From contig NZ_CP060398.1 of NCBI RefSeq assembly GCF_015840915.1, positions 3,782,001-3,846,000 on the forward strand: DNA of 64,000 nt. Direction: 5' to 3'. Numbering within the stretch: the stretch's first letter is position 1; every line of letters begins with the position of its first letter. The DNA comes from Synechococcus sp. CBW1002 (GTDB lineage Bacteria > Cyanobacteriota > Cyanobacteriia > PCC-6307 > Cyanobiaceae). The translations under genes were made by a program, and so were the position numbers. This document shows, piece after piece, positions 3,940 to 40,166 of this stretch. A model generated the notes under the pieces. It saw only the letters and a list, made by a program, of their open reading frames with translations. It was not told where the DNA came from and made no database searches.

Positions 3940-5514
3940 TCAGGCGAGCAGCAACCGCTGGCGCAACCGGTCGCTGAGTTCCTCCCCCAGCAGGGTGAGA
4001 ACGGCATACACCGCCAGCAGGGCCGCGATCTGATCCCAGGCAAAGCCGCTGAGGCTTTCCAGCAGCTGGGTGCCCAGGCCCGTGGCGCCCACCAGGCCCA
4101 CCACCACCGATTCCCGAAGGATCACATCGGTCCGATAGGCGCCATAGGCCAGGTAGGAGCGGGCCAGCCGGCTGTAACGGCCATAAAGCAGGGCCAGTCG
4201 GGGGCCAACGCCACCGGCGCGCAGGGCCTGTTCAGGGCCAGGATCTGCGCTCTCGACCGCCTCCAGCAGCAAGCGCCCCAGGATGCCGAGGTTGTGGAAG
4301 CCCAGAGCCAGGGCCCCGGTGATCAACCCCGGCTGCAGCAGAAACAACAGCAGCAGGGCCGTCAGGGGTGGGGGCCAGAGCCGGCCCAGGGCCCAGATCA
4401 GTTGCAGAGCGGCCCGGGCCCAGCCCCAGGGTGCCGCCAGCAGCAGCAGCAACGGCGCCACGCCCACCGCCAGGGCTGATGCGAGCAGGGTCATCACCAG
4501 AGTGGTGCCGATCAGGTCGCCCCAGGGCAGAGCCAGCACCCCAGACCAGTCGCCCTGGCCCAGGCCCGGCAGGCCTTGCCACTGCAGCAGATCCTGGGGG
4601 CGCACCTCAAGCCGTGCCGCCGCCGCGAGCAGGAGTGGCAGCAAGGCCAGGGCCGTGACGAGGATCTCGCGGCCCCTGCGGCCCACGCTCGCCCGTTTCA
4701 GGCCCAGGCGGCCCGGCATGCCCCAGCGCCGCCGCAGCCAACCCACCAGGGCCTCGAGCAGCAGCATGGCCGCGAGCAGCAGCCAGAGGCTGGTCCAGAG
4801 TTCGTGGAAAGCGAGCGACTGCAGGGTCAGACGCAGGTCGGTGCCGATCCCCCCCAGACCGAAGACTCCGAGCAGGGTGGCGCTGCGCAGGGCGCACTCG
4901 AGGCGATACCCCCCGTAGCTCAGCACCTGCGGGAACAGCGGCGGGCCGATGGCCGTGAGCAGGGCCGCGCCAGGGGGAGCGCCACAGGCGCGCAACGCGT
5001 CAAGGGTGCGGGTGGGAAGGGCATCGAGCTGGTCTGCGGTGACGCGGGCCACCAGGGCGCCGTAGGGCAGGGCGATGGCCACCACCGCCACCGCCGGCTG
5101 CAGTCCCACGAGCTGCAGCAGAAACAGCCCCCAGAGCAACTCATGGATCGAGCGGGGCAGCGCCAGCAGACGGCGGATCAGCCCCGCCGGAGCTGAACCC
5201 AGTCCACAGGTGGCCCACACCGTGCGCGAGCTGGCCAGCCCCAGGGCCAGTCCAAGGCCGAGGCTGAGGGCCCAGCCGAGCAGGGCCACACCCAGGGTGA
5301 TCCCCAGCCCCTGCAGGGCGGAACCCACCACCAAGGGGTCGAGGGAGGGCGTCACCGCCGCAGAGACGAAACGACCCAGCAGATCCCAGCCACCGCCGTG
5401 GATCAGCTGGGGCAGCAGGGCAGCAACCGGCAGCAGCGCCAGCGCCGGCAGCAGCACCCAGAGCGGCACGGCGGGCCGCAGCCTGGGCCTGTCCACCGCC
5501 GGCAGCGTGGTCAT
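3940..5514 (-). CDS. phnE: phosphonate/phosphite-type ABC transporter permease, tandem PhnE
   Basis: A 524-residue inner-membrane permease made of two fused PhnE-like halves (about residues 15-262 and 270-524), each with several transmembrane helices and an EAA-type loop that docks the ATPase (ALRACGAPPGAALLTAIGP at 173-191 and a second copy ALRAGGVGPRLALLYG near 425). Together they should form the full channel. The ATG overlaps the stop of phnC by four bases (ATGA), so the two are translationally coupled. The binding-protein gene is not adjacent; a PhnD-like gene lies about 12 kb away at 17493. Substrate (phosphonate, phosphite or phosphate) cannot be read from sequence. Confidence 0.86.
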   Translation of the reverse strand: MTTLPAVDRPRLRPAVPLWVLLPALALLPVAALLPQLIHGGGWDLLGRFVSAAVTPSLDPLVVGSALQGLGITLGVALLGWALSLGLGLALGLASSRTVWATCGLGSAPAGLIRRLLALPRSIHELLWGLFLLQLVGLQPAVAVVAIALPYGALVARVTADQLDALPTRTLDALRACGAPPGAALLTAIGPPLFPQVLSYGGYRLECALRSATLLGVFGLGGIGTDLRLTLQSLAFHELWTSLWLLLAAMLLLEALVGWLRRRWGMPGRLGLKRASVGRRGREILVTALALLPLLLAAAARLEVRPQDLLQWQGLPGLGQGDWSGVLALPWGDLIGTTLVMTLLASALAVGVAPLLLLLAAPWGWARAALQLIWALGRLWPPPLTALLLLFLLQPGLITGALALGFHNLGILGRLLLEAVESADPGPEQALRAGGVGPRLALLYGRYSRLARSYLAYGAYRTDVILRESVVVGLVGATGLGTQLLESLSGFAWDQIAALLAVYAVLTLLGEELSDRLRQRLLLA

Positions 5515-6386
5515 CGGGCCTCCACGGTGCTGGGCTCTCCGGCATACAGAGCCTTCAGGGCTTCGGGGCTGATCGCGCTGGGCGGGCCATCGAAGACCAC
5601 CTGGCCCTGGCGCAGGCCCACCACCCTTGAGAATCCGCCAATCAGGTCAGGTCGATGCAGACTCAGCAAGAGGGCACGGGGGGGGGCGGCCTGGGCCAGC
5701 AACAGGGCCAGCAGATCCTGGGCCAGGCGCGGATCCAGGCTGGCCAGTGGCTCATCCGCCAGCAGTAGGGTGGGCTGCTGACGCAGCAGACGGGCCAGGG
5801 CCACCCGCTGGCGTTGCCCGCCCGAGAGAGCGGCAACGGGCTCACCGAGCAGGGCGGGATCGAGGTCAACCTGGCGCAGGGCCTGGGCATTGACCTCCGT
5901 CTCCAGGGGGAGCAGAAGATTCAGCAGGGCCCGAGGCCAACCCCACTGGGCCAGGCGTGCGGCGTTGAGATTCTGCTGAACGCTGAGCTCCTCGATCAGG
6001 CGAAGGTCCTGCCAGAGGGTGCCGATGCGGGCCTGTTGGCGCCGCCGCCGCCGGCCTGTGCGGGCCTGCGTCTCCCCCTGCCAGAGCACCACACCCCGCG
6101 TGGGCTCGAGCAGACCATTGGCCACGGCCAGCAGAGTGCTCTTACCGGCGCCGCTGGCACCAAGCAGCGCCACGCTGTCGCCAGGCTGCAACCGCAGCGT
6201 CACCCCCTGGAGCCGGGGGCGCTCCACACCAGCCACGACCCTTCCGGCCACAGCGATGTCCAGCAGCTCAAGCACTGGCGAAGCGGAGGTGTGCGTGGCA
6301 GCGGAGGAGGCGGCAGCACCAAGGGAAGGGGCCTGTGGAGATCTCACCAGGGGAAGGGGGCGTCGACTGGGCGGAATCCCTTGCAC
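5511..6386 (-). CDS. phnC: phosphonate/phosphite-type ABC transporter ATP-binding protein
   Basis: A 291-residue ABC ATPase powering the downstream PhnE permease. Walker A is GASGAGKS (76-83), the signature is LSGGQRQRVALARLL, Walker B with catalytic Glu is LLLADEPLASLD, and the switch His follows in LLLSLHRPDL. The first 38 residues precede the conserved ABC fold (LLDIAVAG) and are low-complexity, so the GTG start used here may be too far upstream, although no other Met is available before the domain. First gene of a two-gene operon. Confidence 0.87.
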   Translation of the reverse strand: MQGIPPSRRPLPLVRSPQAPSLGAAASSAATHTSASPVLELLDIAVAGRVVAGVERPRLQGVTLRLQPGDSVALLGASGAGKSTLLAVANGLLEPTRGVVLWQGETQARTGRRRRRQQARIGTLWQDLRLIEELSVQQNLNAARLAQWGWPRALLNLLLPLETEVNAQALRQVDLDPALLGEPVAALSGGQRQRVALARLLRQQPTLLLADEPLASLDPRLAQDLLALLLAQAAPPRALLLSLHRPDLIGGFSRVVGLRQGQVVFDGPPSAISPEALKALYAGEPSTVEAR

Positions 6387-6995
6387 CCTGCCAGATTCAG
6401 GGTCGCTTCTCTGCGGATTCAGGCGAATTCAGTTCCCGCATCAATCCACAACCTTGTCATTCGGACCAAAGCGGCAGTTGAAGGCCTGCACATAGGCGGA
6501 GCCAACATCGTAATGGCCATGGTCCAGATTGTGCCCGACCTGCCAACGACTGGAATTGGCGGCGGTGCTGTCGCAAGAATAACGCGGATAGAGACAACGC
6601 CCGACACATCGACGGATGTGATTCATACGCGATCCCATGGACGCTGCACAACACCTGCCGCAGCAGCAGTGATATCTGATGCCAGCAGTCAGTGAATCAA
6701 CAACAGCCCTTTCCCATCAATCAGATAGAAGACAGGACACCGGTTCAACGCCAGACCACCAAAAGTCTCACGGAGAAAAAGACCATCTTGAACGCTCATC
6801 ATGAAGAAGGCTAGAGAGCCATGAAGGCAGGAAAGCCAGGAATCACTGAGGCGAACAGCCAACAGGCTCAACACTCTCAATCCGATCGATGGCGATCTGA
6901 ACGCGACCAACTAAGATAATGGTGCCTTGTTCCGGCCCCGTGCTTAAACACTGAAGTACGGTTGTCTGGAAATAAGAGAACCGTCCAGGCTCGTC
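6387..6995. other. AT-richer intergenic gap with two weak candidate ORFs
   Basis: About 600 bases with no confident gene and visibly lower GC than the flanks. On the minus strand, 6441-6638 could encode 65 residues ending GSAYVQAFNCRFGPNDKVVD, and 6689-6910 could encode 73 residues ending NRCPVFYLIDGKGLLLIH. Both have fairly normal-looking C-termini and could be remnants of a decayed foreign gene, but neither has a recognisable family or a good ribosome binding site. Either may be spurious. Confidence 0.3.
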
Positions 6996-17142: not shown

Positions 17143-17379
17143 TCATTCGGCCTGGTGCTGGTCCAGCAAGCCCTGCAGATCGGCTTCCCACTGCACCCGT
17201 TCGGCGGGGTCCCCCACCAGGGTGAGCGCGCCGCTTTCAGGCCACCAGTTCAGCCGCAGATTGGTCTGCTGCTCGTCAAACACAAACAGTTCGTAGGCCC
17301 CCTTGTGCTCCCAGTGGCCGGGATGGCCGAGGCGCTCCACGAGGCTGCGCAACTCCTCCAGGGTTCCGGAAAACTGCAT
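17143..17379 (-). CDS. small conserved cyanobacterial hypothetical protein
   Basis: A 78-residue protein starting MQFSGTLEELRSLVERLG, with NLRLNWWPESGALTLVGDP in the middle. The ATG at 17379 is chosen because upstream residues in the longer frame look unstructured. The compact, mixed alpha/beta composition with two adjacent Trp resembles small single-domain proteins found in picocyanobacteria; no function known. It lies downstream of the PhnD-like gene, 113 bases away, on the same strand. Confidence 0.68.
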   Translation of the reverse strand: MQFSGTLEELRSLVERLGHPGHWEHKGAYELFVFDEQQTNLRLNWWPESGALTLVGDPAERVQWEADLQGLLDQHQAE

Positions 17380-17492
17380 GGACGGACCTTCATGAAGCTG
17401 AGGGAACGCTAAGCACAATTTCGGCCGCTTTCCACAGGAGGCCAGGCCAACCCCCAGCCTCCAAGGCTCAGTTCTGCCCTCGCCTGAGCAGA

Positions 17493-18431
17493 TCAGCGAA
17501 TCTTGCCGATCTGCCGTCCCACCTGCTCGATCTTCTGGTAGTCCGACGCCTGGGCCTGGGTGAACTGCTGGGCGCCGAACAGCTCAAGAATCTGCTTCTG
17601 CTCGGGATCCTTCTGCCTCCAGCTCACGATCGCCGCCTGGATACGGCCCGTGAAGCCCTTGCCAAAGCGCTTGTCCAGGCCTGGCTGGGCGATCCAGTGG
17701 TAGTCGGGATAGGGCGGTGTACGCCAGATCGCGATCACCTTGCTTCGGTTCACCTTGCCCTCCCGCAGGCTGCTCTTCCAGACCTGCTCATTCACCACGC
17801 CGGCCTGATACGCACCGCTCTGCACCAGGGCGATCGTGGCGTCGTGGCTGCCACTGAACCCCGGTGCACCCCCGGCGAAGGATTTGAGGCTCACACCGGC
17901 CTGATTGAGGAAATACTGGGGCATCAGCCGGCCGGAGGTGGAACTCTCGGACCCGAAGGTGAAGCGCTTGCCCTTGAGAGCCGTCAGGCCCTTCTGGTTG
18001 CTGAGGGGCTTGAGGCCACTGGCGGTGTTGGCGATGAACACGCTGTGGAACGCGGCATCGATGTCGCGCTGGGCAATCACCGTCGCCCCCGGCTTCTGCA
18101 GACGGGCCTGCACGCCGGTGAGGCCACCGAACCAGACCAGATCGAGATTGCCGGTGCGGAATGCACTCACGGCAGCGGTGTAGTCGGTCATGGGCACGTA
18201 CTTCACCGGCACGCCCAATTGCTGACTCAGCTCATCGGCCACCAGGCCGTAGAGCCGATTCAGCTTCTCGGGGTTCTGGTCGGGGATGGCGCTGATACGC
18301 AGCACGGTCTGCTGGGCCTCAGCCCGGCTCAGCAGCGGAGCGGCCTGGGGGTTGAGCGGAGGCAGGACCGCCGGCAGCAGGGCCAGGGAGAGACCTGCCA
18401 GCACGGCGGCCCAGCGGGCGCGGGGCGTCAT
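17493..18431 (-). CDS. phnD: PhnD/PtxB-type phosphonate or phosphite-binding periplasmic protein
   Basis: A 312-residue ABC substrate-binding protein with a signal peptide (LAGLSLALLPAVLPPL) and the PhnD-family body: LRISAIPDQNPEKLNRLYG, TDYTAAVSAFRTGNLDLVWF, a Ser-rich ligand segment FTFGSESSTSGRLMPQYFL and GSHDATIALVQSGAYQAGVV. It would deliver an oxyanion to a PhnCE-type transporter; the only candidate here is 11 kb away at 3940-6386. ATG 18431 is preferred over an upstream TTG (18443). The neighbour aminotransferase gene ends about 50 bases upstream. Confidence 0.87.
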   Translation of the reverse strand: MTPRARWAAVLAGLSLALLPAVLPPLNPQAAPLLSRAEAQQTVLRISAIPDQNPEKLNRLYGLVADELSQQLGVPVKYVPMTDYTAAVSAFRTGNLDLVWFGGLTGVQARLQKPGATVIAQRDIDAAFHSVFIANTASGLKPLSNQKGLTALKGKRFTFGSESSTSGRLMPQYFLNQAGVSLKSFAGGAPGFSGSHDATIALVQSGAYQAGVVNEQVWKSSLREGKVNRSKVIAIWRTPPYPDYHWIAQPGLDKRFGKGFTGRIQAAIVSWRQKDPEQKQILELFGAQQFTQAQASDYQKIEQVGRQIGKIR

Positions 18432-18482: not shown

Positions 18483-19661
18483 TCAGAGGGTGGCCAGGCA
18501 ACGCTGGAGACGCCCGAGGCCGTCGTTGATCGTGGCAGGCGAAGCGGCGCACGACAGACGGATGCAACGATCATCTCCGAAAGCCACACCCGGCACCACC
18601 GCCAGGCCCACCTCCTCCAGCAGCAGCCTGCAGAGCGCCATCGAATCGAGGCCATAGGAGCTCACGTCCGGGAAGGCGTAGAAAGCCCCCTGCGGCGCGC
18701 GCAGGGTCACACCCGCAATCGCCTGCAGGCCTTCGGTGAGCAGAGTGCGGCGCTGATTGAACTGCTCTGCCATCGCGATCACGCAGTCGCGCGGGCCGCT
18801 CACCGCGGCCAGGGCTCCGTACTGGGCAAAGCTGCAGACATTGCTGGTGCTCTGGCTCTGCAGGGCGCTGGCGGCGGCCACCACGGCCCGGGGCCCCGCC
18901 AGCCAGCCGATGCGCCAGCCGGTCATCGCCCAGCCCTTGGCGAAGCCGTTGACAATGAAAATCCGGTCGGCCAGATCGGGGGCCACCGCCGCGAAGCTGT
19001 GGTGGCTGTGGCCCGGGGCCAGCAGGAATTCATAAATTTCATCGCAGACCACAGCCACATGGGGATGGCGGCGCAGCACCGCGGCGATCGCCTCGAGATC
19101 AGCCCGGCTGAGCACCATGCCGGTGGGGTTGGAGGGGCTGTTCAGCACCAGCAACTTGCTGGCTGGCGTGATGGCGGCGTCCAGCTGCTCGGCCCGCAGG
19201 CGGAAGCCTGCGCTGGCATCACTGGGCAGCAGCTTCACCGAAGCACCGGCCAGCTGGGCGAGTTCCGGGTAGCTGAGCCAGTAGGGGGAGGGAAGCAACA
19301 CCTCATCGCCAGGGCCCAGCAGCACCTGGAAGAGGTTGTAGAGCGCCTGCTTGCCACCGTTGGTCACCAGCACCTGGTCACTGCTGGTGGACACCCCGTT
19401 CTCCGCCGAGAGCTTGGTGGCGATCGCCTGGCGCAGCTCCGGCTCACCAGCGGCTGGGCCATAGCGGGTATGACCGCTCTCGAGGGCCTCCGCTGCGGCC
19501 GTGCGGATGAAGGCTGGCGTATCGAAATCAGGTTCGCCGGCACTGAGGCTGCAGATATCCCGCCCCTCAGAGCGCAGCTGCTTGGCTTTGGCGGCGATCG
19601 CCAGGGTGAGAGAGGGCTGCAACGCCTGCGCCCGGGCAGACAGCGTCAACGGGGCCGGCAT
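18483..19661 (-). CDS. aspC: class I PLP aminotransferase, aspartate aminotransferase-like
   Basis: A 392-residue aminotransferase of fold type I, probably transferring the amino group between aspartate/glutamate and 2-oxo acids. Features: SLSAGEPDFDTPAFI, GHTRYGPAAGEPELRQAI, TNGGKQALYNL (phosphate-binding), NSPSNPTGMV, CDEIYEFL with the PLP Asp and Tyr, the Schiff-base Lys in NGFAKGWAMTGWRIGWLAG and the substrate Arg in CIRLSCA. Usual homologues have SKAYAMTG at the Lys. Start chosen at ATG 19661 (MPAPLTLS); upstream residues are unconserved. Confidence 0.9.
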   Translation of the reverse strand: MPAPLTLSARAQALQPSLTLAIAAKAKQLRSEGRDICSLSAGEPDFDTPAFIRTAAAEALESGHTRYGPAAGEPELRQAIATKLSAENGVSTSSDQVLVTNGGKQALYNLFQVLLGPGDEVLLPSPYWLSYPELAQLAGASVKLLPSDASAGFRLRAEQLDAAITPASKLLVLNSPSNPTGMVLSRADLEAIAAVLRRHPHVAVVCDEIYEFLLAPGHSHHSFAAVAPDLADRIFIVNGFAKGWAMTGWRIGWLAGPRAVVAAASALQSQSTSNVCSFAQYGALAAVSGPRDCVIAMAEQFNQRRTLLTEGLQAIAGVTLRAPQGAFYAFPDVSSYGLDSMALCRLLLEEVGLAVVPGVAFGDDRCIRLSCAASPATINDGLGRLQRCLATL

Positions 19662-27743: not shown

Positions 27744-27797
27744 ATCGGGATTCTGGGGCAACAGTCAAGCCTCATTAGGCCAGCGGGGCCCACTGCC

Positions 27798-27814
27798 AGC
27801 CCGTGATCCGGGCT
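27798..27814 (+). terminator. possible intrinsic terminator after ctp gene
   Basis: AGCCCG (27798-27803) pairs with CGGGCT (27809-27814) over a five-base loop and is followed by TT. It lies 55 bases after the stop. The T-run is too short for a strong call. Confidence 0.4.
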
Positions 27815-28151
27815 TTGGCCTGCACGTGCCTTGAGAGACCCCATTCTTTTCAGCCATTCCCTTTGGAGCCACTGCCGCTGATCCACTGCCATCCCAGGCC
27901 TTGATGTCCAGCAGCTTCTGCCCTTGGAAAGCCACATTGTTTGTGACCCCTGTCCGATCGCAACCCCTGACTGGTGATAGGGCTGCAGGTGGATGACAGC
28001 TCAGTACCCTTCGGCCGCTGGCAGGTTAGATGACAAAGATGCCGCAGGGAGCTGACGATCTGAAGCTGAATGCCTAGGGTGCAAGAAGAACCTTCCGGTT
28101 CTCCGGAGTGAAACTTCAACCCAGAAGCCTAGGGGCTGCGACTGCCACGAC
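27815..28151. other. upstream region of the V/A-type ATPase operon
   Basis: No gene is seen between the protease terminator and atpB. The region contains two CCTAGG palindromes (28073-28078 and 28128-28133) that flank a small hairpin. The operon promoter should lie here; no -10/-35 pair is convincing. Confidence 0.45.
28087..28102 (+). promoter_or_regulatory. hairpin with TTCC loop between two CCTAGG palindromes
   Basis: AGAACC (28087-28092) pairs with GGTTCT (28097-28102), 50 bases before the atpB start. Symmetric CCTAGG sites lie about 10 and 25 bases to either side. This may be an mRNA leader structure or an operator; it could be chance. Confidence 0.3.
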
Positions 28152-29603
28152 ATGAGCCTTTTCGCCAGTTACTCGAAGATCCTCGAGATCGTGGGCGACA
28201 TCATCCGGGTGGAGGTTCCTGCCGGAGAAGAAGTGGGTGAGAATACACCCCGCTTCAACGATCTTGCGGTCCTGCAGAACGCCAACGGCAGTGGTTCTCT
28301 GGCCCAGGTGATTGATCTGAAGCAGGGCTCGGTGGCCCTGCAGGTGTTTCGTGGAACCAAGGGGGTCTCGACCAACTCGCAGGTACGCTTTCTCGGCCAT
28401 CCGATGACGGCCACCTATTCCGACAACATCCTCGGCAGGGTGTTTCGCGGCACCGGCGAGCCGATGGATGGTGGACCCGAACTTTCGCAGGATCCCCGGG
28501 TGCCAATCGGCGGTCCATCGGTGAATCCGATGTGCCGCATCCTGGCCTCCAAGCTGATCCGCACAAACGTGCCGATGATTGATATTTACAACTGTCTGGT
28601 GGAAAGCCAGAAGATTCCGATCTTCTCCATCTCCGGCGAACCGTTCAATCCCTTCCTGGCACGGATCGGCATTCAGGCGGATGCCGATGTGGTGGTCTTC
28701 GGCGGTCTGGGTCTGATCTTCGACGACTACTACGCCTTCCGCAAGACCTTCGAAGAAGCGGGTGTCTTCCCCCGCACGGTGATGTTCGTCAATCTGGCCT
28801 CCGACCCGATCGTGGAACGGATCCTGATCCCCGACATGGCCCTGGCGGTGGCCGAGAAATTTGCCGTGGAAGAAGGAAAACGGGTGCTGGTGCTGCTCAG
28901 CGACATGACCTCCTTTGCCGATGGTCTCAAGGAGATCAGCATCGCCATGGATCAGGTACCGGCCAACCGCGGCTACCCGGGAGACCTTTACTCCCAGCTG
29001 GCGCGCCGGTACGAAAAGGCTGCCGATTACGCCAAGGGGGGCTCGGTGACGCTGCTCACCGTCACCACCATGCCTGGCGGCGATGTGACCCACCCGGTGC
29101 CGGACAACACCGGCTATATCACCGAAGGGCAGTTCTATCTGCACGACGGCATGATCGATCCCTTCGGCTCTCTGTCGCGGCTCAAGCAGAACGTGATCGG
29201 CAAGGTGACCCGGGAAGACCACAGCCAGATCATGAACACCACGATCCGGCTGTATGCCGGCGCCAGGGATGCGCAGCAGAAGCAGGCCATGGCATTCGAG
29301 CTCTCGGACTACGACCGCAAACTGATCCACTTCGGCGACCTCTTCCGTGATCGCTTCATGGACATCAATGTGGATCTACCGCTGGAGGCAGCCCTGGATC
29401 TGGCCTGGCAGACCCTGGCCGAGTGCTTCGAGCCTCAGGAGTTGCTGATGAAGCAGGAACTGATCGACAAGTACTTTCCCCATCCAGTTCCTCCGAAGCC
29501 AACTCCTGCCCAGCCAACTTCAACGCAGCCGGCTTCAACGCAAACAGATTCTTCGCAGCCAGGCTCTCCGCCATCAGGCCCGCAGACAACCACCGTCGCA
29601 TGA
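28152..29603 (+). CDS. atpB: V/A-type ATPase subunit B
   Basis: A 483-residue non-catalytic B subunit of the V1/A1 head. The degenerate P-loop is SGEPFN (161-166), in a context (IFSISGEPFNPFLARIGIQA) that resembles Chlamydia, spirochaete and Bacteroidetes B subunits rather than archaeal forms. FGSLSRLKQNVIGKVTREDH and the C-terminal FADLF-type helix follow. The last 35 residues are a Pro/Thr/Gln/Ser-rich tail absent from usual B subunits of about 430-450 residues. First gene of the operon; its TGA overlaps the ATG of subunit D. Confidence 0.93.
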   Translation: MSLFASYSKILEIVGDIIRVEVPAGEEVGENTPRFNDLAVLQNANGSGSLAQVIDLKQGSVALQVFRGTKGVSTNSQVRFLGHPMTATYSDNILGRVFRGTGEPMDGGPELSQDPRVPIGGPSVNPMCRILASKLIRTNVPMIDIYNCLVESQKIPIFSISGEPFNPFLARIGIQADADVVVFGGLGLIFDDYYAFRKTFEEAGVFPRTVMFVNLASDPIVERILIPDMALAVAEKFAVEEGKRVLVLLSDMTSFADGLKEISIAMDQVPANRGYPGDLYSQLARRYEKAADYAKGGSVTLLTVTTMPGGDVTHPVPDNTGYITEGQFYLHDGMIDPFGSLSRLKQNVIGKVTREDHSQIMNTTIRLYAGARDAQQKQAMAFELSDYDRKLIHFGDLFRDRFMDINVDLPLEAALDLAWQTLAECFEPQELLMKQELIDKYFPHPVPPKPTPAQPTSTQPASTQTDSSQPGSPPSGPQTTTVA

Positions 29604-30211
29604 GCAGACTCTCCCTCACCAAAGCCTCCCTCAGCCGGCAGAAGGGTCTGCTCAAGACCTATCACGACGTCTTGCCGTCCCTGGACCTCAAACGTCGTCA
29701 ACTCAGTGCGGAGCGAGAAGCCGCCCGCCAGCAGCTGGAGGAGGCCCGAACCCGGGCGGCCGCCATCGAGGCGGAGGTTGGGAAATCCTGTCCGATGCTG
29801 GCCCACGAGCGGATCGACCTCTCGGATCTGGTGACCATCACCGCCGTTCATCAACAGGAGGAAAACCTGATGGGCACCCGCCTGCCGAAACTGCAAGGGG
29901 TGGACTTCCGGGTGGCCGACTATGGCTTGCTGAGCCGGCCCTTCTGGGTGGATGCCGTGGTGGGCTGGCTGCAGGAGGCCCTGCGCAATCAGCTGCAACT
30001 GCAGGTGGCCGAGCAGCGGCTGGAGCTGCTGCGACAGGCCGAGCGCAAGGTGACCCAACGGTTCAATCTGTTCGATCGGGTGCTGATCCCCCGGACCCGC
30101 AGCAACATCAGACAGATCACCATCTACCTGGCCGATGCGGAGCGCGCCGGGGTGGTCAATTCCAAGATCGCCAAACGCAAGAAACAACGGGACATCGCCG
30201 TGGCGCCATGA
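29600..30211 (+). CDS. atpD: V/A-type ATPase subunit D (central stalk)
   Basis: A 203-residue rotor shaft subunit, two long coiled helices at the ends (LTKASLSRQKGLLKTYHDVL; RQAERKVTQRFNLFDRVLIP, IRQITIYLADAERAGVVNSK). It couples ATP hydrolysis in A3B3 to the membrane ring. The start ATG 29600 overlaps the stop of B; a longer open frame extends upstream inside atpB and is ignored. It ends with a four-base overlap with subunit I. Confidence 0.92.
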   Translation: MSRLSLTKASLSRQKGLLKTYHDVLPSLDLKRRQLSAEREAARQQLEEARTRAAAIEAEVGKSCPMLAHERIDLSDLVTITAVHQQEENLMGTRLPKLQGVDFRVADYGLLSRPFWVDAVVGWLQEALRNQLQLQVAEQRLELLRQAERKVTQRFNLFDRVLIPRTRSNIRQITIYLADAERAGVVNSKIAKRKKQRDIAVAP

Positions 30212-32016
30212 CGATCATTCCTCTGGCCAAGCTCACGCTGTTCGGGCTCTCGGCCGACCGGAAACCCCTGCTCGATGGCCTCCAGAGCCTCGGCTGCGTG
30301 CATCTGATCCCCCTGACCAGCACCACGGAAGACGAGAATTTCGTGGTCGCACGGCCCAGCGAAGACGCCCGCAAGGCCCTGCGCTATCTGATGGATGTCC
30401 GGCGACGGCGCCATCAGACGAGGGTCGATGCCACGTTTGATTTCGACCGCATCGTGGCCGAAGCCCTGGCCAACAGGCAACGCAAGCAGCAGGCCGAGGA
30501 TCGGGTGCTGGCCCTGGGCAAGCGACTGGATGAACTGGAGCCCTGGGGAGACTTCAGCCTTCCCGATCAGGATGGACTGGCGGGCAATCTCCTGTGGTTC
30601 TACCGGGTGCCCCACCCCAAGGCCGCCGCATTTCGTGGTGCCCTTGGCAGTCTTGGTCTGCCCTGGCAATTGCTGCACGAATCCCCCGCCCATGGGTATT
30701 ACGCCCTGATCGCCGAGCAGGAACCCGATCAGGCACTCCTGCCCGTGGCCCGTTCCCATGTGGGGGCCCAATCCCATCGGGATGTGCAGCGCCAGTTCGA
30801 TGACGCCCGCACCGCCCTGGAGGATGTGGAGGCCGAGCACGAATCGCTCAGCCGCTGGGTGTTTCTGCTCTCCAAACACCTCACCCGGGCCGAGGACGCC
30901 CAGGCGCGGGAGCAGGCCAGCGGCATGGCCCTCGATGACGACACGCTGGTGCAACTGCAGGGCTGGATTCCTCGCCCCGCCCTGCCCCGTCTCGACGCGT
31001 TTGCGCAACAGCACGGTCTGGCCTATCTCGCCGAGGTGCCGGAGCCGAAGGACTCCCCACCCACCCTGTTGCGCAACCCCGCCACCCTGAGCGGCGGCCA
31101 GGATCTGGTCACCTTTTACGAGACCCCGGGCTACCGCGACTGGGATCCCTCGATCGTGGTTTTTTTCTCGTTCGCGTTCTTCTTCGCCATGATCATGGCG
31201 GACGCCGGCTATGCCCTGGTGCTGGGGCTGGTGGTAGGCCTGAAGTGGACAGCGATGGGGCGCTCGTCCGGTGGACGCCACTTCCGCATTCTGGCGGTTG
31301 TGGGCCTGGTGATGGCGCTGATCTATGGAATTCTGGCCGGCAGCTATTTCGGCGTAGCCCCTCCAGCTGGTTCCCTGTTGGCGCACTGCAAGCTGCTGGA
31401 TCTCAATGATTTCGCCGCGATGATGAAGCTGTCGCTGGTGGTGGGCTGTGCCCACCTGCTCCTGGCCAATGGCGTGGTGGCCCTGCGGGGCCAGTCGCTG
31501 GCCCAGACGGCACCACCGATCGGCTGGATGGCGGTGATTCTGGGCGGGCTGACGCTCTATCTCAGCCAGGCCGAGACTCCCTTCCTTCACCTGGGCATCG
31601 GCCTGATTGCGGGTGGACTGCTCACCGTTCTGCTGCTCAGCAGTGAACGCCGTATCAGCCATCCGGCCGATCTGCTGCTGCGCCTGCTGGACGGGCTGGG
31701 ATCGCTCACCGCCATCTCGAAGTTATTCGGCGATGTGATGAGTTACCTCCGTCTGTTTGCCCTGGGCCTGGCGAGCGCTTCCCTGGCGATCACCTTCAAC
31801 CAGCTGGCTGGGCAGGTCTCACACTCGGGCCTGGCCTTGGGTGTGCCGATTGCACTGTTGATTCTGGTGCTGGGCCATGGCATCAATCTGTTGCTGGCGA
31901 TCATCAGTGGATTTGTGCACGGCCTACGGTTGAACTTCATTGAATTCTTCAACTGGGGGCTGTCCGGGGAAGGTGTTCCCTTTAGGCCTTTCATCAAAAA
32001 GGAGCTTGCCTCTTGA
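30208..32016 (+). CDS. atpI: V/A-type ATPase subunit I (membrane stator, a-subunit)
   Basis: A 602-residue stator: a cytoplasmic N-terminal half with coiled coils (residues 1-300) and a membrane C-terminal half of about seven or eight helices from WDPSIVVFFSFAFFFAMIMADAGYALV onward. The GDVMSYLRLFALGLASASLA segment near residue 510 carries the essential Arg of the ion half-channels, and HGLRLNFIEFFNWGLSGEG with a late EFF motif is typical. It joins the head through E/DUF2764 and the ring K. Its stop overlaps the TTG of K. Confidence 0.93.
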   Translation: MTIIPLAKLTLFGLSADRKPLLDGLQSLGCVHLIPLTSTTEDENFVVARPSEDARKALRYLMDVRRRRHQTRVDATFDFDRIVAEALANRQRKQQAEDRVLALGKRLDELEPWGDFSLPDQDGLAGNLLWFYRVPHPKAAAFRGALGSLGLPWQLLHESPAHGYYALIAEQEPDQALLPVARSHVGAQSHRDVQRQFDDARTALEDVEAEHESLSRWVFLLSKHLTRAEDAQAREQASGMALDDDTLVQLQGWIPRPALPRLDAFAQQHGLAYLAEVPEPKDSPPTLLRNPATLSGGQDLVTFYETPGYRDWDPSIVVFFSFAFFFAMIMADAGYALVLGLVVGLKWTAMGRSSGGRHFRILAVVGLVMALIYGILAGSYFGVAPPAGSLLAHCKLLDLNDFAAMMKLSLVVGCAHLLLANGVVALRGQSLAQTAPPIGWMAVILGGLTLYLSQAETPFLHLGIGLIAGGLLTVLLLSSERRISHPADLLLRLLDGLGSLTAISKLFGDVMSYLRLFALGLASASLAITFNQLAGQVSHSGLALGVPIALLILVLGHGINLLLAIISGFVHGLRLNFIEFFNWGLSGEGVPFRPFIKKELAS

Positions 32017-32465
32017 ACGACCATTTCTCTCTACTCGCTCTCGGCTGGATCGGGATTTATGCTCCGGTCGCTCTGGGGGCGATCGGTGCCGCGATCGGCT
32101 GCACCATTGCCGGTCAGGCAGCGATCGGCGCGATGATGGAAGTCAACAGCGGCTACGGTCGTTTTGTCGGCCTTTCGGCGCTGCCATCGTCGATGTCGAT
32201 CTACGGCATTGTGGTGATGTTCATCCTCAACAGGCCGGTGATCCCGGCCAATGCCGGGGCCCTGTTCGGCCTGGGCACTCTGTCGGGACTCGCCTTTCTG
32301 ATTGCCGCGACCTATCAGGGTCTCTGCTGCGCTTCGGCGATCGCCGGATCGAAGTCGAAGCCGGAGATTTTCGGCCTGGCCTTGGCACCGGCCGCAATCG
32401 TGGAGGGCTTCGCCGTCTTTGCCTTTGTGTTCGCCCTGGTGGCTGCCGGTGGGATTCCCAAGTAA
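32013..32465 (+). CDS. atpK: V/A-type ATPase subunit K (c-ring proteolipid)
   Basis: A 150-residue, four-helix proteolipid made of two hairpins, the ion-carrying rotor ring. The carboxylate is Glu131 in APAAIVEGFAVFAF. Compared from memory with Enterococcus hirae NtpK, Gln102 (ATYQG) matches the ligand Gln110 and Tyr64 is kept, but the Thr-Gln pair is Ser60-Met61 (LPSSMSIYG). One Na+ ligand is thus absent, leaving H+ or Na+ specificity open. TTG start overlaps subunit I. Confidence 0.93.
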   Translation: MNDHFSLLALGWIGIYAPVALGAIGAAIGCTIAGQAAIGAMMEVNSGYGRFVGLSALPSSMSIYGIVVMFILNRPVIPANAGALFGLGTLSGLAFLIAATYQGLCCASAIAGSKSKPEIFGLALAPAAIVEGFAVFAFVFALVAAGGIPK

Positions 32466-32527
32466 GTCACCCCGTATCACGTCCAACTCTGTGATCCGCT
32501 GTTCCCCCTCCTCTGTTCTGGAGTGCG

Positions 32528-33229
32528 ATGCCCAAGTTCCGAACCAAACGTGAAGACACCCCGGCCCAGGTCGCTGCGGGGGTTGAGGAGCTGATCTCCC
32601 GTCTGCGGGATCAGGGTGTGGCCGCCGGCAGGAGCCAGGCCGATCAACTGGTGGCCGATGCTCGGACCGATGCCCAGCATCTGCTGGATCAGGCCCGCCA
32701 GCAGGCCGACCAGATCGTGCAGCAGGCCCGTCATCAGGCGGAAACCCTGGAAAACTCGGGCAAGCAGGCCCTGACGCTGGCCCTGCGGGATGCGGTGCTG
32801 GAGCTGAAGTCGCAATTGATGGAGCGGTTCCGGGGCGAAGTGCGCCAGCTGGTGGGAGAGGAGCAGCAGAAGCAGGAAATCCTCGAAAAGATGATCCTGG
32901 AGGTGGTGGGTCGTGTACGGGGCGAGGCCGACCGCTCCGAGCAGCCTGAAGTGATCCTGCCCCGCCACATCGCCGGCCTCGAGGAACTCAGCCAGAATCC
33001 CCAGGAGCTCGAAAACGGCGTGCTCACCCGGTTCGTGCAGCTCGTGTCCCGGGGGATCCTGCGCGAGGGGGTCAGCTTCGGCGTCGCCTCCGACCACCAG
33101 CAGGGGCTGCGACTGCGGCTGGTGGATCGCGATGTGATGCTCGACATCAGTGATGCGGCCGTGGCCGAGGCCATCCTTCAGCATCTGCAACCTCGCTTCC
33201 GGGCGCTGCTGGAGGGTGTCGTGAAATGA
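32528..33229 (+). CDS. atpE: V/A-type ATPase subunit E (peripheral stalk)
   Basis: A 233-residue E subunit: a long helical N-terminus rich in Ala/Gln/Asp (ADARTDAQHLLDQARQQADQ) that pairs with a stalk partner, then the globular C-terminus. ATG 32528 follows CTGGAG by five bases. It is the only gene in the cluster with a real spacer before it (62 bases); all others overlap. No separate G/H subunit gene was found. Confidence 0.83.
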   Translation: MPKFRTKREDTPAQVAAGVEELISRLRDQGVAAGRSQADQLVADARTDAQHLLDQARQQADQIVQQARHQAETLENSGKQALTLALRDAVLELKSQLMERFRGEVRQLVGEEQQKQEILEKMILEVVGRVRGEADRSEQPEVILPRHIAGLEELSQNPQELENGVLTRFVQLVSRGILREGVSFGVASDHQQGLRLRLVDRDVMLDISDAAVAEAILQHLQPRFRALLEGVVK

Positions 33230-33969
33230 GCCCCCGCTACACGGCGCTGATGGCCAGCCTGCCGCCCCTGGGAGGTCTGTTGGAGGCGCGGGCACCGGCG
33301 ATTTCGATGCTGAAACTGGAGAGCCGCCTCAACTTGCTGCACCCCGAGGACAAACGCACCCTGGACCTGATGGTGGTTTTTCTCTCCCAGTCGGTGCGCG
33401 ACGACGACAGTCTGGCTGCTCCGGTGGACGCCCGTCTGCTGGAGTCGGCGAATCAGTTCTTCAAGGAGGTGTCGAACCCCACCCTGCGCCAGCTGGTGGC
33501 CCAGCGTCTCGACCTGCGCACGATCATCGCGGCCCTGCGCCGACGCCACCGCGGCGAAAGCGAGCCCCCCACGGGTCCCGCCTGGGGCTTTGGTCCCTGG
33601 GTGAACACGATCGAGCGGCGCTGGAAGGAGCCGGCCTTCGGTCTTGAGGCGGTCTTCCCCTGGATCCCCAACGTGAGCCACCTGCTCGAATCGGGAGATC
33701 TGGTGACGCTGGAACGCTCGTTGTTCGGAGTGATCTGGAAGGATCTTGACCGTCTTGGTTTCGGTCACCACTTCGACCTCGAGGCCGTGGTTGTGTACGT
33801 CGCCCGCTGGGCGCTGGTCGATCGCTGGTCCCATTACGACGCCCGGTTGGCCGTGACGCGCTTCGGCGATCTCGTCAGTACCTCGCTGGCGGGCATCACC
33901 AACGGCTCCCAGGCTCCGCCCCCCCCTCGATCCGCTCCCGCCACCCAACCCGCCGCTGCCAGCCGATGA
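33226..33969 (+). CDS. DUF2764-type V-ATPase operon protein (probable C-subunit equivalent)
   Basis: A 247-residue protein between E and A, the place held by the DUF2764 protein in chlamydial and spirochaete operons. Its N-terminus MSPRYTALMASLPPL and the AISMLKLESRLNLLHPED segment fit that family. Those operons lack a classical C subunit, so it probably caps the rotor or stalk as C does; this is inference. Overlaps E and A by four bases each. The last 25 residues are Pro/Ala-rich. Confidence 0.75.
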   Translation: MSPRYTALMASLPPLGGLLEARAPAISMLKLESRLNLLHPEDKRTLDLMVVFLSQSVRDDDSLAAPVDARLLESANQFFKEVSNPTLRQLVAQRLDLRTIIAALRRRHRGESEPPTGPAWGFGPWVNTIERRWKEPAFGLEAVFPWIPNVSHLLESGDLVTLERSLFGVIWKDLDRLGFGHHFDLEAVVVYVARWALVDRWSHYDARLAVTRFGDLVSTSLAGITNGSQAPPPPRSAPATQPAAASR

Positions 33970-35822
33970 CCGAAGCCAGCTTCAACATCGCCCGCGTGGT
34001 CGCCGTGCAGGACGACCTGGTGACGATCGCCATGGCCGATACCAATCCGCGACCGATCCTCAAAAATGAGGTGATCTACATCCTCCCGGGCCGCAAGGAC
34101 GGCAACCGGCAGGAACGCCTCAAGGCCGAGGTTCTGAGGGTGCACGGCTCCACCGCCGATGCCCAGGTGTACGAAAGCACCAAGGGAGTGGGCGTGGGAG
34201 ATCCCGTCGAACAGTCGGGCGAACTGCTGTCGGTCACCCTCGGGCCGGGTCTGCTGAGCCAGGTGTACGACGGCCTGCAGAATCCCCTCGCCGGGCTGGC
34301 TGCCGGGTATGGCACGTTCCTCCCCCGGGGAGCCGTAGTGCCGCCCCTGGATACCGAGCGGAAATGGTCGTTTCAGCCCACCGCCAGGATGGGCCAGCGG
34401 CTCAGGGCCGGTGATGTGATCGGCACGGTGCAGGAAGGCCGCTTCACCCACAAGATCATGGTGCCCTTCGCCGAGCCTGGAGAGGTCACGCTCGACTGGA
34501 TTCAGCAGGGCAGCTTCACCATCGACACCGCGGTGGCCCGCATCCGCGATGCCCAGGGCAACAGCCGCTCCCTCACCCTCACCCAGGAATGGCCGGTGCG
34601 GCAACCCCTGCCCCAGAACCTGCTGGAGAGGCGGCTGTGTGAGCGGCTCTATCCGGAGGAGCCGATGATCACCACCCAGCGGATCGTCGACACGTTTCTG
34701 CCGATCGCGCGCGGGGGAACCGGTTGCATCCCGGGGCCCTTCGGCGCAGGCAAGACCGTGCTGCAGAACATGATCTCGCGCCACTCCGACGTGGACGTGG
34801 TGATCGTGGTGGCCTGCGGCGAACGGGCCGGCGAGGTGGTGGAAACGATCACCGAATTTCCCAAACTGATCGACCCGAAAACGGGGGGATCACTGATGGA
34901 TCGCACGATCATCATCTGCAACACCTCCTCGATGCCCGTGGCGGCCCGGGAGGCTTCGATCTACACCGGGCTCACCCTGGGTGAGTACTACCGCCAGATG
35001 GGTTTCAACGTGCTGCTGATCGCCGATTCCACCTCCCGCTGGGCCCAGGCGATGCGCGAAACCTCCGGCCGGCTTGAGGAGATCCCCGGAGAGGAGGCCT
35101 TTCCGGCCTATCTCGACTCCTCGATCAAGAGTGTCTACGAAAGGGCCGGCATCATCCGCACCAACGACGGCAGCGTCGGCAGCCTCACCATGATCGGCAC
35201 CGTGTCACCAGCCGGCGGCAACTTCGAGGAGCCGGTCACCCAATCCACCCTCAGCACCGTGAAGGCCTTCCTGGGACTGAGTGCGGATCGGGCCTACAAG
35301 CGTTTCTATCCCGCGGTCGACATCCAGATGTCCTGGTCGCGTTACTTCGGCCAGCTCGAAGGGTGGTTCGCCAAGCATGTCGCCCCCGACTGGGTGAAGC
35401 GGGTGCAGGCGATGACTGATCTGTTGCGCCGCGGTGATGCGGTGAACCAGATGATTCAGGTGACCGGCGAGGAGGGCGTCACAATCGAAGACTTCATTCT
35501 GTATCAGAAGTCCCTGTTTCTCGACATGGTGTACCTCCAGCAGGATTCCTTCGACGAGGTGGATGCCAGCTGCTCGATCGAGCGCCAGAAAACCTGCTTC
35601 GATCTGGTCTGCGGGCTGGTGGACCAGACTTATCACTTCAACGACAAGAAGGCCGTTCGTGATTTCTTCACCCGCCTGACCGGTCTGTTCAAGAACCTCA
35701 ACTATGCACCCACCAACTCGCCCACTTACACAGGCTTTCTGCAACAGATCCAGACTCTCGCCACCACCCAGGCTCATCCGCCTGGCATCGCCAAGACGAC
35801 GGAACCGGTGTCCAGCCGCTGA
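33966..35822 (+). CDS. atpA: V/A-type ATPase catalytic subunit A
   Basis: A 618-residue catalytic subunit. Walker A is GPFGAGKT (257-264), the catalytic-Glu segment VVACGERAGEVVETITEF follows, then LLIADSTSRWAQAMRE (Walker B) and GSVGSLTMIGTVSPAGGNF. The non-homologous insert typical of A subunits (about 110-200) is present. Start ATG 33966 overlaps the DUF2764 gene. It closes the operon; in related operons it is third and directly precedes B. Confidence 0.95.
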   Translation: MTEASFNIARVVAVQDDLVTIAMADTNPRPILKNEVIYILPGRKDGNRQERLKAEVLRVHGSTADAQVYESTKGVGVGDPVEQSGELLSVTLGPGLLSQVYDGLQNPLAGLAAGYGTFLPRGAVVPPLDTERKWSFQPTARMGQRLRAGDVIGTVQEGRFTHKIMVPFAEPGEVTLDWIQQGSFTIDTAVARIRDAQGNSRSLTLTQEWPVRQPLPQNLLERRLCERLYPEEPMITTQRIVDTFLPIARGGTGCIPGPFGAGKTVLQNMISRHSDVDVVIVVACGERAGEVVETITEFPKLIDPKTGGSLMDRTIIICNTSSMPVAAREASIYTGLTLGEYYRQMGFNVLLIADSTSRWAQAMRETSGRLEEIPGEEAFPAYLDSSIKSVYERAGIIRTNDGSVGSLTMIGTVSPAGGNFEEPVTQSTLSTVKAFLGLSADRAYKRFYPAVDIQMSWSRYFGQLEGWFAKHVAPDWVKRVQAMTDLLRRGDAVNQMIQVTGEEGVTIEDFILYQKSLFLDMVYLQQDSFDEVDASCSIERQKTCFDLVCGLVDQTYHFNDKKAVRDFFTRLTGLFKNLNYAPTNSPTYTGFLQQIQTLATTQAHPPGIAKTTEPVSSR

Positions 35823-36924: not shown

Positions 36925-38070
36925 TCAAGTCTTGGATGAAATGACTTGAAGAGAGTTTGCGGAGGACCCTGTTGAAGGCATTGCAGGAGGTGTTGAGCCC
37001 CCTTCGAGGAAGAGGGTCTGCGTTGGGTAAGCAAAGGCGATGGCTTCACCGAGGAATTTCTCCATAATCTGATAATTCACTTCTTGCTGAACATTCAGAG
37101 CCAGGACGTAATCACCACCTGGGACAAAATACACAAATTCAAATTCGAGAGCGCTGTCTGCAAACCGCACGAAATGACAGCGATCGAACTCAGCCGGCGG
37201 CACCTGCTCGACCACCTGCTGCAACAGCGCAGGAATGCGGCGCACTTTCTCCAGTGAGGTCTGGTATTCAACGCCGATGTGATGCACCAGCCGGCGGCGG
37301 GGCAGATCGCCGAAGTTGCGGATCGTCTGAGAGAGCAGATCCTCGTTGCTGATCACGATGCGCTCGCCATCGAGGCTGCGCAGACTCGATGAACGGATTC
37401 CCACTCTCTCCACCGAGGCCCAGTGCCCGCCGAACTGAATCACCTGCCCGATTTCGAAGGGTTGATCCAGCAGGATCGTGAGATAGTTAATGAAGTTCGA
37501 CACTGGCCCCTTCAGGGCCAGGCCGATACCGATGCCGGCACCCGCCAGGGAGGCATAGATCGCGCCCATTTCCACGCCCTGGTTCTGCAGGAACACCAGT
37601 CCCCCGAGCAACCAGAACAAGGTGCGGATCATCGGGGCCAGACTCTGCAGAGTGGCGATCTGCCTGTCCTTGCCGAACCGGCGCAGCGAGCGATCCAACA
37701 GCAGCAACAGACTGCTGTTCACCAAGCGCACCACCAGCACGATGGCAACCAACTGGAAGGCCCCCTCCACGACCCGGTCGAGCCAGGCACCGGCGGCCAG
37801 GGCCTGCAGCTCAGACACCAGGCTCTGCCACCCCCAGACCGCCACCCCCAGATAGGCCAGCGGCGTGATCGTGCTCAACACCAGGCTGGCCAGCAGATCG
37901 TCGGTGCGGCTGCTGGTTCGCCCGACCAGCCGCATCACCCAGCGCTTGAGCAGACGCGACGCCAGCCAGACCACGAAAGCGCCAAGGGCCATGCCGCCCA
38001 GGGTGCTGAGAATGGCTAAGGCGGCGGTGTTGTTGATTCCTCCCATCGGCATCCGTTGATCCTGCGGCAC
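36925..38070 (-). CDS. MscS-family mechanosensitive channel
   Basis: A 381-residue small-conductance channel that opens on membrane tension to release solutes. Four to five N-terminal helices precede the pore helix (ASLAGAGIGIGLALKGPVSN) and the beta domain PFEIGQVIQFG, ISNEDLLSQTIRNFG. GTG 38070 is the far start; ATG 38052 or 38046 are equally possible. A longer relative is encoded directly upstream on the same strand (38176), so both probably serve osmotic downshock. Confidence 0.88.
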   Translation of the reverse strand: MPQDQRMPMGGINNTAALAILSTLGGMALGAFVVWLASRLLKRWVMRLVGRTSSRTDDLLASLVLSTITPLAYLGVAVWGWQSLVSELQALAAGAWLDRVVEGAFQLVAIVLVVRLVNSSLLLLLDRSLRRFGKDRQIATLQSLAPMIRTLFWLLGGLVFLQNQGVEMGAIYASLAGAGIGIGLALKGPVSNFINYLTILLDQPFEIGQVIQFGGHWASVERVGIRSSSLRSLDGERIVISNEDLLSQTIRNFGDLPRRRLVHHIGVEYQTSLEKVRRIPALLQQVVEQVPPAEFDRCHFVRFADSALEFEFVYFVPGGDYVLALNVQQEVNYQIMEKFLGEAIAFAYPTQTLFLEGGSTPPAMPSTGSSANSLQVISSKT

Positions 38071-38175
38071 ATTCGGTGCACTCTATGCAGAGATCGACGA
38101 CTGCGTGGCTGAACCCTGAGCCATGCTGCAGCACACAGATCCAGCGAGGCGGCCCCCAGGCAGACGTGCAGGGAA

Positions 38176-39930
38176 TCAGCCGGGCGGCATCCCCTTGGTG
38201 GAGACATCGGCTCCAACCTGTGGGCCTGGAAGCCCTCCCAACAGAGCACGACTGAGTTCCGTCGGCAGCTGCAGCTGCAGCGCACCCTCGCTGAGATGGA
38301 GGGTGCGCTGGGGGAAGGGGATCGTGATGCCGTATTGCCGCATAACGGCTTCGATGCGGTAGTTCAGGGCACTGATGATTTCATACTGACGGAGTGGCTG
38401 GTTGATCCAGATCAGCAGATGGAAGTTGAGAGCGTTGTCGCCGAAGCCCTGGAAGAACACCTGCGGTTCCGGTTCCTTGAGGATGCCGTCCACATCTGCG
38501 CAGGCTTCGCACAGGGCCTGGGTCACCTGTTGCGGATCACTGCCGTAGGCCACCCCCAGAGGCACCTGCAGGCGGGAGGTGGTGGAGCCGTGACTCCAGT
38601 TCACCACCCGGGATTCGAGGAACTCGGAATTGGGCACAATGATGGCAATCCGATCCAGGGTGAGCACCTCCGTGCTGCGCAGATTCACCCGCTGCACGGT
38701 GCCCTGCAGATCACCGATCTCCACGAAATCCCCCACCCGGATCGGCTGCTCGAAGATGATCACCAGACCGCTCACGAAATTCTTGGTGATGCCCTGCAGA
38801 CCGAGGCCCACGCCCACGCCCAGGACACCCGCGAACAGAGTGAGAGAGGACAGATCCAGGCCCCAGAGCTGCAGCAGCACCAGGGTGCCGATGAACAGCA
38901 GGCCATAGCGCACCACAAAGGCCACCGCCTCCTGGGCTCCCACGTTGATGCCCGTGTATCGCAGGACGCGACTGCGTAACAGCCCCTGCAGGACCCCAAC
39001 CAGGCGGGTGAGCAGCACAAACAGACCCAGCAACACCACGACATCCAGGACGGAGTAGCTGTTTTCTCCCAAGGGAAGAAACGGTGAGGCGAGGCTGTCG
39101 CTCAGGGCGGTGGCGACCCGATAGAAGCCGATCCGGGCGCTGGGAAACGGCTGAGCCGCCAGGGCGATCGCAGAGATCCACAGACCGATCTTCAGCGCCA
39201 GCATCCCGCTGCGCAGCAGAAAGCGCAGACCTTGAACGCGCATGGGGCGCGCCGGATCGATCGCAGCCGGCTCGAAATACCTTTGCGCCAGGTTCCGGCC
39301 CAGCCACCCCAGAGCGCGCTGACCCAGCCAGGCGAGCAGCAGCAGAGCTGCGGCCAGCAGGAGACTGCGGCGAACGTGATCCGGATGGCGCTCCCGGCGG
39401 CCCTGCTCGATCGCCTTCTCCAGCTCCGCCTTCCAGCGCTGGGCCTGCGCAAAGGGGTCGAGCCCATCGGGGGCATCGCGCCGGGTCACGGTGATCAGCA
39501 CCTGCCCGTCGAGGGCGAGCACCGGAAGGTTGTTGTGCTCCCGCACTGTGATCTGCACGGGGCGACGGGAGAGCACGGCCTGCTGGAGGATGCGGTTGAC
39601 CGGCTCCACCCGTTGTTCGGCACTGAACTCATTCGATGACCAGACGCCGAACAAGGGACGGCCGTCCAGCTCCACCTGCTCGGGCCCCGCAGCTTGCGAG
39701 GCAGCCTTGGTGAGCGATCCAGCGGATCCCTTCTCTGCCGGTACTGCGGCCTGGGGAATCACGGGCCCGAGCGGTGTCGCGCCTGCCCCCTGAAGCAGTC
39801 CCGCCCCGACCGTGATCGCCAACCACGCCGCAAGGACGATGGGAAACAGCAACCGAGGCAGTCGCTGACGGCCTCTCGGGGACCGTCTATGGCGGTGACG
39901 TCCTTGAGGGGGGAGACGGTTTGGGGTCAT
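38176..39930 (-). CDS. MscS-family channel with periplasmic N-terminal domain
   Basis: A 584-residue MscS-superfamily protein. A signal-like helix (LLFPIVLAAWLAITVGAGLL) leads a periplasmic domain of about 120 residues, then several helices, the pore region LFAGVLGVGVGLGLQGITKN and the MscS beta domain (FEQPIRVGDFVEIGD, IIVPNSEFLESRVVNWS). Start ATG 39930; an upstream 20-residue extension lacks support. It is separated by about 105 bases from the shorter MscS gene. Confidence 0.88.
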   Translation of the reverse strand: MTPNRLPPQGRHRHRRSPRGRQRLPRLLFPIVLAAWLAITVGAGLLQGAGATPLGPVIPQAAVPAEKGSAGSLTKAASQAAGPEQVELDGRPLFGVWSSNEFSAEQRVEPVNRILQQAVLSRRPVQITVREHNNLPVLALDGQVLITVTRRDAPDGLDPFAQAQRWKAELEKAIEQGRRERHPDHVRRSLLLAAALLLLAWLGQRALGWLGRNLAQRYFEPAAIDPARPMRVQGLRFLLRSGMLALKIGLWISAIALAAQPFPSARIGFYRVATALSDSLASPFLPLGENSYSVLDVVVLLGLFVLLTRLVGVLQGLLRSRVLRYTGINVGAQEAVAFVVRYGLLFIGTLVLLQLWGLDLSSLTLFAGVLGVGVGLGLQGITKNFVSGLVIIFEQPIRVGDFVEIGDLQGTVQRVNLRSTEVLTLDRIAIIVPNSEFLESRVVNWSHGSTTSRLQVPLGVAYGSDPQQVTQALCEACADVDGILKEPEPQVFFQGFGDNALNFHLLIWINQPLRQYEIISALNYRIEAVMRQYGITIPFPQRTLHLSEGALQLQLPTELSRALLGGLPGPQVGADVSTKGMPPG

Positions 39931-40166
39931 GCCGCTCTCTCCAGAAGGCCGGTGCCTGAGGCTGACGCGAGGCCACGAATCTCGTGCCACCTTCCCACCC
40001 CCGCAGACCCCGCCAAATCGAAACTAAATATTAAGAGCCCAGGCCAGACCTGGGTTGGATGGGACAACCTTGGACGTGTCACAGTCCGCAGCCTGCTGGA
40101 TCGGTGAAGCCGGGCCAGTCGGGCCTTCAGCCGGACCGCGTCACTTGTTCTCCGCAACAGGTCCCC

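Follow-up and report, generated by a model that had tools for sequence, protein, structure and literature searches.

The window analysed here, a 64,000-nt stretch of the Synechococcus sp. CBW1002 genome, contains an inherited seven-subunit V/A-type rotary ATPase operon of the class that includes a DUF2764 gene. The operon begins with the gene for subunit B, and as this order is common to dozens of species in several phyla, it is inherited and not a local accident. With DUF2764 taken as the position of subunit C, all operons that we read are rotations of one circle of genes. On the preferred account, to which we give a probability of roughly 85%, the B-first operon was inherited as one cut of this circle, the adjacency of K and E is old, the D-I joint arose once, and the long K-E spacer is a later widening.

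Gene content and organization of the operon

The host genome is complete (3.85 Mb) and belongs to a picocyanobacterial family, its closest named relative in our set being Synechococcus sp. CS-1328. The seven genes (28152-35822, plus strand; Table 1) follow the order B-D-I-K-E-DUF2764-A. This order had been proposed in a first-pass annotation made from the sequence alone, and gene calls and profile matches agree with it. The joints described there were also recovered: five overlap by 4 nt, in the form of ATGA at B/D, D/I, E/DUF2764 and DUF2764/A and of TTGA at I/K, and K and E are 62 nt apart, with the ribosome binding site of E present as GGAG four bases upstream of the start codon.

Subunits A and B are of the V/A type, including the A-specific insert domain PF16886, and D, I and K are likewise present with profile matches above the cut-offs; the candidate subunit E gene, whose best matches are V-type E models at scores below their cut-offs, holds the same slot in all relatives. 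No match to the F subunit (PF01990) was found anywhere in the genome at E<=1. The operon is not of the nine-subunit Enterococcus/Thermus type, as no F match was found and DUF2764 stands in place of C. It fits the DUF2764 class, both by the presence of a PF10962 gene and by the A and B sequences, which group with those of Bacteroidota as opposed to those of classical operons; the Bacteroides class likewise has fewer subunits according to a published study (PMC10197588). Subunit K of the window reads LPSSM at the place of the Na+-type TQ motif of Bacteroides (LPGTQ-type) and Enterococcus, so that by the usual motif rule the K subunit of the window would be proton-specific. Two genes for MscS-type mechanosensitive channels are located 3' of the operon on the opposite strand (36925-39990, minus).

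Table 1. Features of the V/A-type ATPase operon (window coordinates)
Feature	Position	Strand	Evidence
Intergenic leader 5' of B, 408 nt, head of operon	27744..28151	+	gap from S41 protease gene to B
V-type ATPase subunit B, non-catalytic	28152..29603	+	NCBIfam NF002555/PRK02118, 712.8 bits, above cut-off
Subunit D, central rotor shaft	29600..30211	+	PF01813, 112 bits; NF002565/PRK02195 above cut-off
Subunit I, membrane stator, 116-kDa family	30208..32016	+	PF01496 above cut-off
Subunit K, proteolipid ring, TTG start	32013..32465	+	NF007200/PRK09621, 176 bits, above cut-off; PF00137 above cut-off
K-E spacer, 62 nt	32466..32527	+	GGAG before E start
Subunit E, peripheral stalk	32528..33229	+	V-type E models PRK01558 (67 bits) and PRK01005 (56 bits), both significant, below their cut-offs
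DUF2764 protein, candidate rotor collar resembling a shortened subunit C/d	33226..33969	+	PF10962 above cut-off; predicted fold
Subunit A, catalytic	33966..35822	+	PRK04192/NF003220, 767 bits, above cut-off; PF16886 insert domain

Distribution of the B-first order

All 65 GTDB species loci have the B-first order, in a scan of the genome collection built on patterns from cyanobacterial B, which favours B-first over E-first relatives, and in a sample that leaves out Chlamydia, Spirochaetes and the wider Planctomycetes. All seven genes are present in 55 loci, the rest being cut by contig ends. The loci come from picocyanobacteria, other cyanobacteria, Alpha- and Gammaproteobacteria, Anaeromyxobacter, and Planctomycetes (partial contigs only). 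Two other cyanobacteria, one from another genus of the family and one from a different cyanobacterial family, also have the order B-D-I-K-E-DUF2764-A. Two alphaproteobacterial plasmids carry a B-first operon, and 20 further genome regions, mostly from the same genomes as the loci already counted, are B-first too; no relatives of the operon were found in the viral contigs searched. The distribution is patchy: 3 of 386 genomes in the phylum, 20 of 400 in the family, and 6 of 293 in the order of G143, a cyanobacterium outside the picocyanobacteria. A DUF2764-like match in the genome G240 was dropped, being below the cut-off in a region that matches no other subunit.

V-type ATPases have been reported in picocyanobacteria, namely in Synechococcus WH5701, BO8801 and Black Sea strains; extracts of the respective papers (PMC7434838, PMC2359735) do not discuss gene order or DUF2764. 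Strains WH5701, BO8801 and BSA11S are represented among our loci, with the same operon class and the same B-first order.

Several loci have features of their own. In G143 (locus L009), a 2.7-kb insertion (4174-6855) containing genes for an IS605-type OrfB transposase and a GNAT acetyltransferase separates DUF2764 from A. Subunit I is seemingly in pieces in two Nitrincola loci (L065, L074), the remainder of the operon being intact. Varying sets of arginine deiminase, carbamate kinase and YfcC-type transporter genes adjoin the V-ATPase operon in alphaproteobacteria (L030, L031, L033, L077, L078) and in Enterococcus (L081), and in L078 the carbamate kinase gene overlaps the start of B. These neighbours suggest that the enzyme may use ATP to pump, with arginine breakdown as the fuel.

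V/A-type ATPase operons as rotations of one circle

In Chlamydia and Borrelia the order is E-DUF2764-A-B-D-I-K. We read the same order directly in two Bacteroidota records, from Bacteroides and Parabacteroides; these are 'plasmid' records that look like chromosome pieces, and DUF2764 as their second gene agrees with extracts of the Bacteroides study (PMC10197588), where it is described as a protein of unknown function. The window order is an exact rotation of this one, and the circular permutation put forward in the first-pass annotation is thus real, although older than was held there. If seven genes were ordered at random, the result would be a rotation of a given order, other than that order itself, with a probability of only 6/5040, and the relation is therefore not due to chance.

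The Bacteroidota operon has the same seven genes and the same 4-nt D-I overlap as that of the window. It starts at E, with A and B adjacent and K and E not, whereas the window operon starts at B; the E-first arrangement is not found in the window, B-first being a gene-order variant within the DUF2764 class. The operons of the Enterococcus type (Na+/H+ V-ATPase), read in plasmid-collection records of Enterococcus gallinarum, Peptoclostridium and Pusillibacter, have the order H-I-K-E-C-F-A-B-D, in which the first gene is annotated as hypothetical and was named H from its position. They follow the same circular order, with both K-E and A-B adjacent, but contain H, a canonical C and F, lack DUF2764, and have D as the last gene, not joined to I. 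Rubrobacter shows another rotation, D-H-I-K-E-C-F-A-B. A P-type ATPase gene follows the plasmid operon of Rubrobacter radiotolerans (L083), and likewise A-B in Pseudonocardia (L086).

Each linear order lacks a single adjacency of the seven-gene circle: A-B in the window, K-E in Bacteroidota, and D-I in Enterococcus. A circle (H)-I-K-E-C-(F)-A-B-D, leading back to I, would then be common to bacterial V/A-ATPase operons, and lineages would differ in the point at which it is cut: before I or H in Enterococcus and Clostridia, before D in Rubrobacter, before E in Bacteroidota, and before B in the window operon and its relatives. A Borrelia-like V-ATPase cluster is known from Kuenenia (PMC2936114), and two different V/A gene orders have been described in Nitrospirales (PMC12342949). 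The extracts of the literature mention neither the circular relation nor DUF2764 in the role of subunit C, though reviews may do so.

The K-E joint and its spacer

The first-pass annotation had read the K-E joint as a fossil of the ancestral operon start. This is not supported: K and E are adjacent in the outgroup operons of Enterococcus, Clostridia and Rubrobacter, with gaps of 4 to 20 nt, and since these operons already contain the joint, K-E is an old adjacency and not a scar, kept by the B-first operon and lost from E-first operons. In the B-first lineage, the adjacency lost would be A-B.

Nor is a reading of the 62-nt gap as a relic supported. Outside the picocyanobacteria, most lineages have a K-E distance between -4 and 13 nt, as against 47-99 nt in the picocyanobacteria (n=15). 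In three of four other cyanobacteria it is 11-13 nt, and in the fourth (G143) 106 nt, largely made up of GTGAGGG-type repeats. The medians are -1 nt in alphaproteobacteria and 9 nt in Oceanospirillales and allies, and the ranges are 12-232 nt in Chromatiaceae and 10-181 nt in the Endozoicomonas and Vibrio group. The wide gap is mainly a picocyanobacterial widening and, as some Chromatiaceae and Endozoicomonas loci are also wide (up to 232 nt), arose more than once. The spacer sequence is poorly conserved, likeness being limited to the window and its sister Synechococcus sp. CS-1328, mainly in the last ~35 nt.

These distances also bear on an alternative in which the DUF2764 class descends from an E-first operon that was rotated to begin with B, so that K-E marks the former operon start. 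It would account for the start at E in Bacteroidota operons of the same class and for the width of K-E, which exceeds that of every other joint in the window and in nearly all 15 picocyanobacteria. It would also mean that a joint present in the outgroups was broken and then rebuilt, and K-E is overlapping or only 6-13 nt wide in most B-first lineages. No sigma-70-like promoter match was found in 32466-32527, although none was found 5' of B either, which makes the scan uninformative on a real promoter. Overall, we consider this account as a whole unlikely, though the class may have had an E-first ancestor. On the preferred reading, the 62-nt spacer would be a later widening, with the likely effect that translation of E starts at a ribosome binding site of its own and is uncoupled from that of K, a protein needed in many copies.

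Phylogeny and origin of the gene order

In a tree of concatenated A and B (IQ-TREE, 31 taxa), B-first and Bacteroidota E-first operons come out as sisters. Each of the two groups has 100% support, as does the clade that joins them to the exclusion of the outgroup; the outgroup taxa are few, branches are long, and the E-first group consists of two Bacteroidota on a long branch. A larger FastTree tree agrees on the groups. The D-I adjacency is common only to these two groups. Its distance is -4 in both Bacteroidota and in each of the 30 loci measured from cyanobacteria and alphaproteobacteria, and the 4-nt overlap is found in nearly all B-first operons. The joint probably arose once, in the common ancestor of B-first and E-first operons. 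Most simply, it would have formed where the two copies of a tandemly duplicated operon met, with the loss of different genes afterwards.

Counted in block moves, an I-first, an E-first and a B-first ancestor give equally short histories. If the regain of adjacencies is disfavoured, a tandemly duplicated ancestor holding D-I, K-E and A-B explains the orders by one gain and two losses, without any regain. Such a duplication, followed by alternative loss, would be the simplest account, resting on adjacencies not being regained. Duplication and loss, or block transfer, had been named in the first-pass annotation as the cause of the B-first order. As a cause this is reasonable, the orders being circular permutations, but as a local event it does not agree with the wide occurrence of the order. 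The duplicated intermediates that the annotation proposed to look for were found at most in part: none of the loci examined has a second full copy of the operon, and the 125 upstream and downstream flanks contain no subunit remnants, with the exception of one locus (L054). There, the last 335 bp of A (17188-17522) are repeated 1.1 kb downstream (18634-18968, 93% identical), which may represent a partial tandem duplication, the insertion of an element or an assembly artefact.

The B-first order could also have arisen independently several times under selection, acting for instance on the order of assembly or on subunit dosage, as other cut points exist (D-first in Rubrobacter) and rotations recur across the superfamily. 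B-first operons form, however, one clade with 100% support and have fine details in common, such as the D-I and I-K overlaps, which makes repeated origin very improbable. Finally, a recent local rearrangement, in the window genome or its genus, for which nothing speaks beyond the difference from the textbook order, can practically be dismissed: the first-pass annotation itself had stated that a wide occurrence of the B-first order would mean inheritance, the identical order is found in all 65 loci from several phyla, including other cyanobacteria, and on plasmids, and B, D and DUF2764 are single-copy in the genome.

DUF2764 as a candidate subunit C/d

The DUF2764 protein of the window (247 residues) has no recognizable sequence relationship to subunit C. 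Pfam yielded PF10962 and no subunit C/d family match, a PDB sequence search had no match, and hhalign against four C subunits gave a probability of 3%. The AlphaFold2 model, built with 53 sequences, is all helical, with a mean pLDDT of 86. Foldseek alone gave no significant match for this model. When PDB chains were aligned to it, the top 11 were all V-ATPase subunit C/d, from yeast, human, rat, bovine and Thermus (Z 9.5-10.8 over 186-205 residues, rmsd 4.1-4.6), the next unrelated fold being at Z 5.8; helical proteins can reach Z of about 10 through a common arrangement. Compared with subunit C/d of Thermus thermophilus (1R5Z), the predicted protein is alike in fold over about 205 residues and in operon slot, but subunits C of that type have about 320 residues, and identity in the structural alignment is 17%. 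In the operon, DUF2764 stands between E and A, where subunit C stands in classical operons. From the drop in Z beyond the C/d chains, an alignment that spans nearly the full length, and the E-to-A slot we conclude that DUF2764 probably works like subunit C/d, while by sequence it falls outside that family.

A broader proposition would be that V/A-ATPase operons are one circular order cut at at least four points by tandem duplication and alternative loss, and that DUF2764, unrecognized as such, serves as rotor collar (subunit C/d) in the reduced class, to which the operons of Bacteroidota, Chlamydia, Borrelia and the window belong; for the two parts taken together, we see the chances as even.

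Implications

The predicted C/d fold would give a testable identity to a protein of unknown function in an operon required, according to extracts of the Bacteroides study (PMC10197588), for the survival of Bacteroides fragilis in bile acid, and it suggests how a V-ATPase lacking a recognized C subunit could work. The gene orders point to a rule by which the neighbourhoods of V/A-ATPase genes stay on the circle while the start point moves, and such a rule lets the history of these operons be polarized by adjacencies and not by the first gene.
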